Source: Phycisphaerae bacterium (GTDB taxonomy: Bacteria > Planctomycetota > Phycisphaerae > UBA1845 > UTPLA1). Taken from it: a DNA stretch of 28,810 nucleotides. Shown here piece by piece: positions 5,102 to 28,810 of the stretch (position 1 is its first letter; every line of letters starts with the position of its first letter). The notes below the pieces were generated by a model. The model did no database searches. It saw only the letters and a list, made by a program, of their open reading frames with translations, and had not been told where the DNA came from. Position numbers and translations under genes: made by a program. The DNA is taken from the NCBI GenBank assembly GCA_016935885.1, contig JAFGQA010000289.1, forward strand, positions 1 to 28,810. Direction: 5' to 3'.

Positions 5102-5552
5102 GGGTCCGTGACAGTCTGGGCAGGTGCCGCTGGCAGCTTGCCAGCCAGTGCGTATGCGTCATGCGCCCACCAGGGAGACCGCGCGGGCGGGCAAACCGCC
5201 GTACATGTTTAGCGTTCAAGTGGGGTGGCACGGGTAACGAACGACACGCCCCACGGGGTCGGGTCGTCCATTACCCGTGAGAACAGGCTGGAATGGATGC
5301 CCACGGGTAAGCTCCGCCGCCGCTGCCGCTGGTGCGAGAATCCCTTCTCGCATCCCCTTCCGGTGAGAATCCTCTCCCACAGCTCGACACAACGGGCCGA
5401 GAAGGGATTCTCGGCCCAGCGTATCTGCCCACGGGTAGGCTCCGCCGCCGCTGGCGGCTCCGCTTACCCATGCCAGCCCACTTGAACGCTAAACACGCAC
5501 AAGCCGCCTGGTGGCGTCCAGAATCGGATGCAGCCGGAAGTGTCACGGACGC
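5102..5552 (-). mobile_element. MITE-like dispersed element, reverse copy, interrupted by another insertion
   Basis: Outer ends are GGGTCCGTGACA (5102-5113) and TGTCACGGACGC (5541-5552), inverted repeats matching the other copies in this window. The flanks are GATTGCCGT (5093-5101) and GATTGCCCT (5553-5561), a 9-bp target duplication with one mismatch. The body matches the reverse complement of the 24427 copy, except that a block of about 300 bp sits inside the first internal hairpin. No transposase is encoded. It ends 119 bp before the start of the exported protein at 5671. Confidence 0.8.
5202..5499. mobile_element. Second, nested non-autonomous element with 31-bp terminal inverted repeats
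   Basis: Positions 5207-5237 and the reverse complement of 5464-5494 match at 29 of 31 bases, beginning GTTTAGCGTTCAAGTGGG. The block interrupts the 5102 element exactly between CAAACCGCC (5192-5200) and CAAGCCGCC (5500-5508), an apparent 9-bp target duplication; uninterrupted copies have this word once. Inside are hairpins GCGAGAA/TTCTCGC (5334-5351) and GGGCCGAGAA/TTCTCGGCCC (5394-5417), and a direct repeat (5298-5325 and 5426-5453) built on CCCACGGGTARGCTCCGCC. The motif CACGGGTAA or its complement recurs about five times. No protein is encoded. Confidence 0.75.
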
Positions 5553-11946: not shown

Positions 11947-12306
11947 CGCCTTCCTGCATCGGCGCTTTGGAGTGAGGACCGTAGCTAGCGTGCCGCCAAG
12001 CTCGAATCCATCAGCACGTGGTAAAAGGGAAAACAGCGGTTCGGAAACGCCGGTGCTGATAATCTGTGCGGGATTGGGTTAATCTACTCGTACAGCGGGT
12101 TCTAGCAGCCCGTGGCAAAAGGGAAGACAGCGGTTCGGAAACGCCGTTCCTGACCGTGGAAACCACCGGCGAGACGCCGGTGCCACAGTTTTTCCGCGGG
12201 CCGATAGGACGCGGCTCTCCGCGATGATGCGGCCCTATACTGCAGGAACGATCAAGACGATCAACACGAATGAGACAGGTTCCACAGTGATCCTTGTCGG
12301 AGTGCC
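11947..12306. repeat. Gene-free stretch with a 50-bp direct repeat
   Basis: Positions 12010-12059 and 12104-12153 match at about 44 of 50 bases, around a shared core AGCGGTTCGGAAACGCCG, with a 94-bp period. The remainder shows no gene. The region separates a methyltransferase gene start from the TPR gene end on the same strand. The element is not seen elsewhere in the window. Confidence 0.6.
12164..12182. terminator. Perfect stem-loop, possible terminator
   Basis: CACCGGCG, loop AGA, CGCCGGTG. On the plus strand a T5 run follows at 12189-12193; on the minus strand, where the TPR gene ends 125 bp upstream, the tail is only GTTTCC. The same stem recurs at 26884-26902, so it may be a dispersed hairpin rather than a dedicated terminator. 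Confidence 0.4.
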
Positions 12307-14859: not shown

Positions 14860-14938
14860 TATTTGATCCTCGCCGTGGGCGGGTTTCCACGCCCTTGCCG
14901 CCAAACGCCTCCGAGCGAGGCTTCCCGCCGTCGCAGGG

Positions 14939-15078
14939 GGGCGTGACACTCCCGGCGGCATTCGATTCTGGGTGCCACGAACGGCTTGCCCGCCCGTGCG
15001 GTCTCTCCGGTGGGCGCGTGCGGCATACACACTGGCAGGCAAGCTGCCAGTGCCACCCACCCGAACTGTCACGGACCC
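14939..15078 (+). mobile_element. MITE-like dispersed element, forward copy
   Basis: The left end GGGCGTGACA and right end TGTCACGGACCC (15067-15078) are flanked by GTCGCAGGG at 14930-14938 and again at 15079-15087, a perfect 9-bp duplication. The body carries hairpin 1 (CACGAACGG / CCGCCCGTG around loop CTTGC, 14976-14998) and hairpin 2 (CACTGGCAG / CTGCCAGTG around loop GCAAG, 15030-15052). It lies 80 bp upstream of the TPR lipoprotein start, reading in reverse relative to that gene. Confidence 0.85.
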
Positions 15079-15321
15079 GTCGCAGGGTACCCAGAGAGCC
15101 CTGGATCTCGCAAGGGGGATGCTCCCACAGCTCTCACACAGCTCTCATTCGGGGCCGTTGGTCTCGGCCCGTCTTGGGCTGGCCCAGTATGGGCGGCGCA
15201 CATAACTCTTTGCTCAGCCGGAAGTTATCTGTGGTTGCGGCGGTTCGGCTGCCACGATGCTGGCCGGATTGCTCGAAGCTGCGGGTTTCTGAATACCATG
15301 GCGAATGTTCGTCCAGAAACC
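15079..15321. other. Intergenic stretch upstream of the candidate promoter
   Basis: No gene supported. It contains a short direct repeat CACAGCTCTCA near 15127-15148 and a GGCCG/CGGCC stem near 15154-15170. Divergent genes on either side make it a likely promoter region for both. Confidence 0.4.
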
Positions 15322-22202: not shown

Positions 22203-22345
22203 GGGTCTGTGACACTCCCAGCGGCATTCGATTCTGGGTGTCGCGGGCGGCTTGTGCGCCCGTGCGATCCCTCCGATGGGCGCATGGGGCATAACACACG
22301 CGCAGACAAGCCGCTAGAGGTACACGCCTGAAGCGCCACGCACCC
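22203..22345 (+). mobile_element. MITE-like dispersed element, forward copy, degraded
   Basis: Left end GGGTCTGTGACA; right end CGCCACGCACCC (22334-22345) is diverged. The flanks GTATTCAG and GTGTTCAG differ at one base and fit an old 9-bp target duplication (the exact frame is uncertain by one base). Hairpin 1 is mostly kept (loop CTTGT), but hairpin 2 is broken. Unlike the other copies it lies downstream of a gene, 31 bp after the phospholipase D-like stop. Confidence 0.75.
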
Positions 22346-24301: not shown

Positions 24302-24426
24302 GCGACTGCATCCACGAAAGGCAAAACCAGTGCTTGCCGCCTGTGGCCCGTTCATACCAATCCAGCACCGCACGGTACCACACCAAACGCGACGTGTCAC
24401 ATCTCGCCGACCAGCACGATGGCACG
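24302..24426. other. Intergenic leader of the WecA-like gene
   Basis: No gene; it lies between the WecA-like start (reading left) and the repeat element at 24427. A GGCACGGG word appears here and again at 24572 and 24612. Confidence 0.4.
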
Positions 24427-24568
24427 GGGTCCGTGACACCTCCGGCGGCATTCGATTCTGGGTGCCGCGGGCGGCTTGTCCCCCCGTGCGGTCTCTCTGG
24501 TGGGCGCGGGGGGCATACGCACTGGCAGGCAAGCTGCCGGTGGTACCCGCCCAAACTGTCACGGACCC
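24427..24568 (+). mobile_element. MITE-like dispersed element, best-preserved complete copy
   Basis: 142 bp with perfect 12-bp terminal inverted repeats GGGTCCGTGACA and TGTCACGGACCC. Flanked by GATGGCACG at 24418-24426 and 24569-24577, a perfect 9-bp direct repeat. Both internal hairpins are present: hairpin 1 with one mismatch (CGGGCGG / CCCCCCG, loop CTTGT) and hairpin 2 (CACTGGCAG / CTGCCGGTG, loop GCAAG). It lies 126 bp upstream of the WecA-like start. Confidence 0.88.
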
Positions 24569-24619
24569 GATGGCACGGGCTGCCATAAAAGTTCATCCCA
24601 GAACTTCCCTTGGCACGGG

Positions 24620-28688: not shown

Positions 28689-28810
28689 GGGTGCGCGACG
28701 CTTCCGGCGGCATTCGATTCTGCGTGCCACGGGCGGCTTGTCCGCCCGTGCGGTCTCTCCGGTGGGCGCGTGGGGCATACACACTGGCAGGCAAGCTGCC
28801 AGTGGCACCC
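28689..28810 (+). mobile_element. MITE-like dispersed element, truncated by the window end
   Basis: Starts GGGTGCGCGACG (a diverged left inverted repeat) and runs to the window edge. Both hairpins are perfect: CACGGGCGG / CCGCCCGTG around CTTGT (28728-28750) and CACTGGCAG / CTGCCAGTG around GCAAG (28782-28804). The left flank is CTCAACGCA (28680-28688), which should recur after the right end if this is a 9-bp duplication. It lies 98 bp before the start of the saccharopine dehydrogenase gene. Confidence 0.8.

Follow-up and report, generated by a model that had tools for sequence, protein, structure and literature searches.

Short elements with ISKra4-type ends in a Phycisphaerae contig and their probable transposase family

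The stretch of Phycisphaerae DNA analysed here (28,810 nt, called the window) carries dispersed repeats which are very probably MITEs moved in trans by a DDE transposase of the ISKra4 family (Mutator-like, p-MULT 4). The missing source of transposase can thus most likely be named at the level of family, in relatives. MITEs are a known kind of element; the new point, which is well supported, is this ISKra4-ended family, and its most unusual feature is the hairpin pair wrapped inside the ends.

MITE copies in the window

Sequence comparison gave five related stretches in the window, at 5102-5552, 14939-15078, 22203-22345, 24427-24568 and 28689-28810, or about one copy per 6 kb. The initial annotation had described five copies sharing ends and body, and this was confirmed, the fifth being cut by the window end. 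The copies are non-coding with terminal inverted repeats, and are 140-143 bp long where no nested insert is present. The features are as follows.

14939..15078, plus strand: focal MITE copy, 140 bp, left end two bases short (GGGCGTGACA)
14930..14938, no strand: left target duplication GTCGCAGGG, perfect match to 15079-15087
15079..15087, no strand: right target duplication GTCGCAGGG, perfect match to 14930-14938
24427..24568, plus strand: MITE copy, 142 bp, ends 12/12, perfect GATGGCACG at 24418-24426 and 24569-24577
24460..24488, plus strand: left 29-nt hairpin of copy 24427-24568, half of an inverted pair (motif search)
24520..24548, minus strand: right 29-nt hairpin of copy 24427-24568, half of an inverted pair (motif search)
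5102..5552, minus strand: MITE copy with nested element, 451 bp, flanks GATTGCCGT/GATTGCCCT matching at 8/9
about 5201..5500, no strand: nested second inverted-end element in copy 5102-5552, with 37-bp arms at 5201-5237 and 5464-5500
22203..22345, plus strand: older MITE copy, 143 bp, flanks GTATTCAG/GTGTTCAG, degenerate right end
28689..28810, plus strand: MITE copy truncated by the window end, 122 nt present

In a comparison without gaps, the copies were 66% (22203), 87% (24427) and 92% (28689) identical to the stretch at 14937, and the copy at 5102 was 85% complementary to the same stretch over 97 nt. Duplications of 9 bp had been claimed for all four complete copies. Two of them are perfect and one is 8/9, but the flanks of copy 22203-22345 are an 8-mer with one mismatch (7/8) and contain no clean 9-mer. 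The inverted ends and the target duplications support the earlier reading of a non-coding, non-autonomous element (MITE) which depends on an outside transposase.

Two points go beyond that annotation: the MITE body is mostly two hairpins, and the length of copy 5102-5552 is due to a second inverted-end element inserted within it. Read from the sequence, the nested element has arms of GTACATGTTTAGCGTTCAAGTGGG type and an apparent 8-bp duplication (AAACCGCC/AAGCCGCC), and its end motif had no other occurrence in the loci collected. It means that an older MITE was itself once a target.

Eighteen ORFs of the window were scanned with Pfam, and no transposase was among them. The matched ORFs include a class-I tRNA synthetase (E/Q type), a methyltransferase, a TPR protein, a GEVED protein, a PLD-like protein, a glycosyl transferase, parts of a pyruvate:ferredoxin oxidoreductase and a saccharopine dehydrogenase. 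Mechanical ORFs of adjacent minus-strand genes extend into the MITEs at 14939-15078, 22203-22345 and 24427-24568, so the gene starts there could be mis-annotated. The copy at 28689-28810 and the unrelated contig L010 (G003:C228) both stop at MITE position 122, as if assemblies break there.

The same MITE in other genomes

Matches covering most of the MITE were present in genomes G002, G003, G219, G269 and G396, and G001 had a 55-bp piece only. Records sharing the MITE are Phycisphaerales bin11, Phycisphaerales CSMAG_2417 and Phycisphaerae Zod_Metabat.429. Across the class, 44 of 397 genomes were matched, mostly by the hairpins alone, with two candidates scored per genome. The MITE was not found in plasmids, and hits in a Klebsiella MAG (L002) and in Lactiplantibacillus (L003) had the short pattern only and were set aside as chance.

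Genome G269 had 17 MITE matches at E 1e-8. Ten of these copies were scored with both ends: seven carry perfect, mutually different 9-bp duplications (CTATTGTCA, GACTTCGGC, ATCGGACAC, GCGTTTGGA, TGATGCTGA, GCCGGAACT and AATCACCGG), while in the other three no duplication was seen at this register. An empty site for copy 24427 was sought in G002 and G219, whose orthologous operon can be aligned only from about 24.7 kb onward; the spacer has diverged too far for one to be recognised.

The initial annotation had named variable ends without flanking duplications, or presence only as conserved orthologous intergenic sequence, as the observations that would speak against transposition; the copies elsewhere instead occupy different flanks with duplications of their own. 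The same observation bears on a reading of the repeats as conserved structured RNA or regulatory spacers and not mobile DNA. Such a reading would fit the strong folding of the MITE as single-stranded DNA (z -6.3) and the positions between genes, as judged by mechanical ORFs. We consider it extremely improbable, because of the different flanks and because Rfam yields only a tRNA elsewhere in the window.

End pattern and target duplications

Of 397 genomes in the class, 27 contain the 22-bp end pattern GGGTCCGTGACAnnntnGGCGG exactly, and 0 contain its reversed control. The 12-mer end gave 78 hits, versus 1 for the reversed control, in seven genomes picked for carrying the MITE or its pieces. No viral contig contained the end pattern, and the literature had the 12-mer only in two papers, on human and rat genes as judged by title.

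From the fetched loci and the window, 71 distinct inward end pairs were collected by taking the nearest partner and disregarding flanks, and 63 of them are elements of 130-451 bp. The 9-bp flanks of the 71 pairs were perfect repeats in 21 and had at most one mismatch in 32, and three or more mismatches in 34; the focal copy 14939-15078 was scored as a miss because its left end lost two bases. When flanks were swapped as a control, 0 of 4970 were perfect and 0.02% had one mismatch. Flank widths of 8 and 10 each yielded one perfect case, thus the signal is sharp at 9 bp. Left/right asymmetry of the MITE ends was not significant (p 0.19).

Two longer end pairs were rejected as autonomous elements. 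The 1831-bp pair in L147 (1769-3599, G337) contains an ORF which is IS110-type by eye, and its flanks differ at 6/9 positions; the 2310-bp pair in L168 has a 668-aa ORF with no evident transposase features and flanks differing at 5/9. The two ends in L147 (1769-3599) are exact ISKra4-type ends, and probably another element was inserted in or between MITEs there.

Full-length insertion sequences and their transposase

A hunt for a full-length insertion sequence with the same ends and a transposase gene had been proposed with the initial annotation, and such elements were found in related genomes. The first contigs with an end next to coding sequence were L185 (G311) and L163 (G346). At E 1e-20, a 270-aa stretch from L185 had matches in 34 of the 397 genomes, with at most six candidates scored per genome. 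The full-length elements are listed here.

L190 (G233), 1533 bp: same ends, perfect 9-bp duplication CGATCTTCG
L189, 1541 bp: same ends, no duplication
L188, 1524 bp: same ends, no duplication
L191, 1541 bp: more diverged ends, one-mismatch duplication
L192, 1541 bp: more diverged ends, no duplication
L209, L214 and L212, more distant insertion sequences: perfect, perfect and no 9-bp duplication, respectively

Among the eight with both flanks visible, the 9-bp duplication was perfect in three, had one mismatch in one and was absent in four.

The junction of the two transposase frames (A and B) was located in L188, L189, L190, L191, L192, L194 and L163. The frames overlap at TCTTTTTCCCCCTCAGG in 7/7 genomes, and a T5C5 tract is conserved at the overlap in the same seven loci. 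In L189 frame A covers 870-1268 and frame B 1237-2313, therefore the needed shift is +1 or -2. The conserved tract is presumably used for the frameshifting.

The best match of frame B is NF033572 (ISKra4) at E 1e-51, with 168-176 bits, which is below the model cut-off of 205; three single-frame relatives reach 244-274 bits, above this cut-off. In Pfam, frame B matched nothing and frame A had zinc-ribbon matches below threshold only, and no solved structure matched at E 1. The source of transposase had been left open earlier, with IS1 and IS10/IS50 as examples; the transposase genes enclosed by these ends have their matches in the ISKra4 family.

The end motif lies 17-28 bp behind the match, with 0-3/17 mismatches, in 8/8 loci that are at least 67% identical to the query and have the 3' end, the query's own locus included. 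Nine loci of 48-62% identity have 1-6/17 end mismatches and eleven lower loci have 4-8/17, so the end likeness declines as transposase identity declines. In random draws from the same loci, 27 of 3000 reached 3/17 mismatches or fewer. Transposase matches were present in 8 of the 27 genomes with exact ends versus 26 of the 370 others (p 0.0009, uncorrected for kinship). The other 19 of the 27 had no match at E 1e-20; breaks in the assemblies at repeats may be the reason. In G001, where 66 ends with at most 3 mismatches were counted (9 in controls), no assembled full-length element was among the ends listed.

Proteins of the partner family searched against the window gave nothing (best E 0.12). 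The window has no transposase fragment, and the partner was seen in relatives only. This route by way of relatives leaves some room for MITEs that belong to a different family with 9-bp duplications (IS1, IS10/IS50, the IS903 group or similar) and reached ISKra4-like ends by convergence, and 9-bp duplications are indeed known elsewhere, as in the part of PMC6382973 on MITEAba12 with ISAba12. We regard this as unlikely, because the MITEs share 17 specified end bases with ISKra4-type elements and the likeness tracks transposase identity. IS1595, the one other family searched for as a partner, was also rejected: three fragments were found, in 2 of 7 genomes, none with such an end.

From insertion sequence to MITE

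Three derivatives, in L197 (499 bp), L195 (560 bp) and L193 (687 bp), have retained the two ends together with the 3' part of the transposase gene, and none of them has duplications. They form a bridge between the insertion sequence and the MITE. The MITEs inspected have nothing but ends in common with the insertion sequences. In G346, G001 and G385, transposase pieces with these ends occur together with short elements. The size series from 1.5 kb through 0.5-0.7 kb to 0.13-0.45 kb makes the origin of such elements traceable.

Hairpin pair in the interior

The 142-bp MITE has two 29-nt hairpins of type GGGTGCCACGGGCGGCTTGTCCGCCCGTG in opposite orientation, at positions 34-62 and 94-122. All eight hits of the hairpin motif in the window (up to 4 substitutions) are inside MITEs. 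Among 63 short elements (up to 6 substitutions), 19 have the pair, one has a single hairpin and 43 have none; 394 kb of sequence shuffled in two-base blocks contained 0 hits. A REPIN is an inverted pair of REP hairpins with a spacer. Among 26 loci fetched for hairpin matches, both hairpins were present in 11, one in 14 and none in one; 25 of the 26, all except L018, have no ISKra4-type end within 100 bp (at least 6/17 mismatches, both strands). The hairpin pair thus occurs elsewhere without ISKra4-type ends, and therefore the MITE looks like a REPIN-like hairpin pair wrapped in ISKra4 ends.

This free occurrence of the inverted pair, together with Y1_Tnp matches in 13/13 genomes searched (111 matches), would also suit elements that are REP/REPIN repeats in the first place and owe their spread to a Y1 (RAYT) transposase, with the outer ends incidental. 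It is very unlikely in our judgement, because the 9-bp duplications sit exactly at the ISKra4-type ends, and Y1 transposition is not known to leave a target duplication. The 43 of 63 short elements which carry these ends and lack such a hairpin also argue against it, as does the lack of hairpin hits near Y1 transposases (0 in 30 loci of the 111 matches, 89 kb); other loci, 645 kb in total, contained 15 hits.

A 53-nt direct repeat in two copies (87%), at 12007-12059 and 12101-12153 of the window, contains GTGGTAAAAGGGAAAACAGCGGTTCGG. A stretch similar to this repeat is located within the 230-bp MITE of L006.

Proposed mechanism

For the preferred reading, movement in trans by an ISKra4-family transposase, we propose the following steps. 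An autonomous insertion sequence of about 1.5 kb, full-length in a relative, would make the ISKra4-family transposase from two overlapping frames. The transposase would recognise the ends of about 22 bp of type GGGTCCGTGACAnnntnGGCGG and mobilise the intervening DNA, which in the MITE family of the window would be the inverted pair of REP-like hairpins. Insertion with a 9-bp stagger would then give the 9-bp target duplication. We infer that the window's own copies were mobilised by such a transposase. The chemical route may be cut-and-paste or may pass through a circular intermediate, as described for relatives; passages of PMC3942029 report circular intermediates for several families of Mutator-like prokaryotic transposases.

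We tentatively speculate, with the balance somewhat against it, that ISKra4-type ends are a class-wide wrapper, in which a single kind of transposase mobilises a variety of unrelated short bodies and one lineage enclosed a REPIN-like pair. If so, the resulting element would be a chimera whose mobility signals are of two sorts, DDE-type ends outside and hairpin tags inside, and which multiplied to the density of copies seen in the window.

Comparison with known systems

ISKra4 elements are little studied, and no description of ISKra4-family MITEs turned up in the open-access literature searched, which was also screened for MITEs in Planctomycetes. In these uncultured bacteria the end pattern can serve directly as a probe of past transposition.

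As described in passages of PMC3942029, Mutator-like prokaryotic transposases use DDE catalysis and their elements have ends of 18-39 bp and duplications of 8-9 bp; p-MULT 4 comprises the ISAzba1, ISMich2 and ISKra4 groups, and its elements occur in Planctomycetes. The related insertion sequences agree with ISKra4 / p-MULT 4 as given there in the best match of the transposase, in ends of about 22 bp starting with GGG, in 9-bp duplications and in the size of about 1.5 kb, whereas the elements of the window have no transposase. The same source describes two frames joined by a -1 shift for the ISMich2 group; two frames are present in our related insertion sequences, but the shift needed is +1 or -2. 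ISKra4 elements are located preferentially 50-250 bp from genes, according to the part of PMC9208149 consulted.

The pair MITEAba12/ISAba12, as presented in parts of PMC6382973, is similar in that a short non-autonomous element (about 113 bp in MITEAba12) with 9-bp duplications was assigned to an insertion sequence by shared ends alone. It differs in the insertion sequence, in its GGCTTTGTTGCACAAA-type ends and in its AT-rich interior, and transposition of MITEAba12 was seen in the laboratory.

With REP repeats (PMC3733652) and with REPINs, the MITE of the window shares an interior made of two oppositely oriented 29-nt hairpins and a spacer, but its tag is GGGTG and not GTAG or CGTC. Unlike REP / REPIN, the hairpins of the window are enclosed by DDE-type ends with target duplications, and no Y1 association was found for them in the 30 loci searched. 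Such an interior points to a way in which a REP-like repeat can spread via an unrelated transposase.
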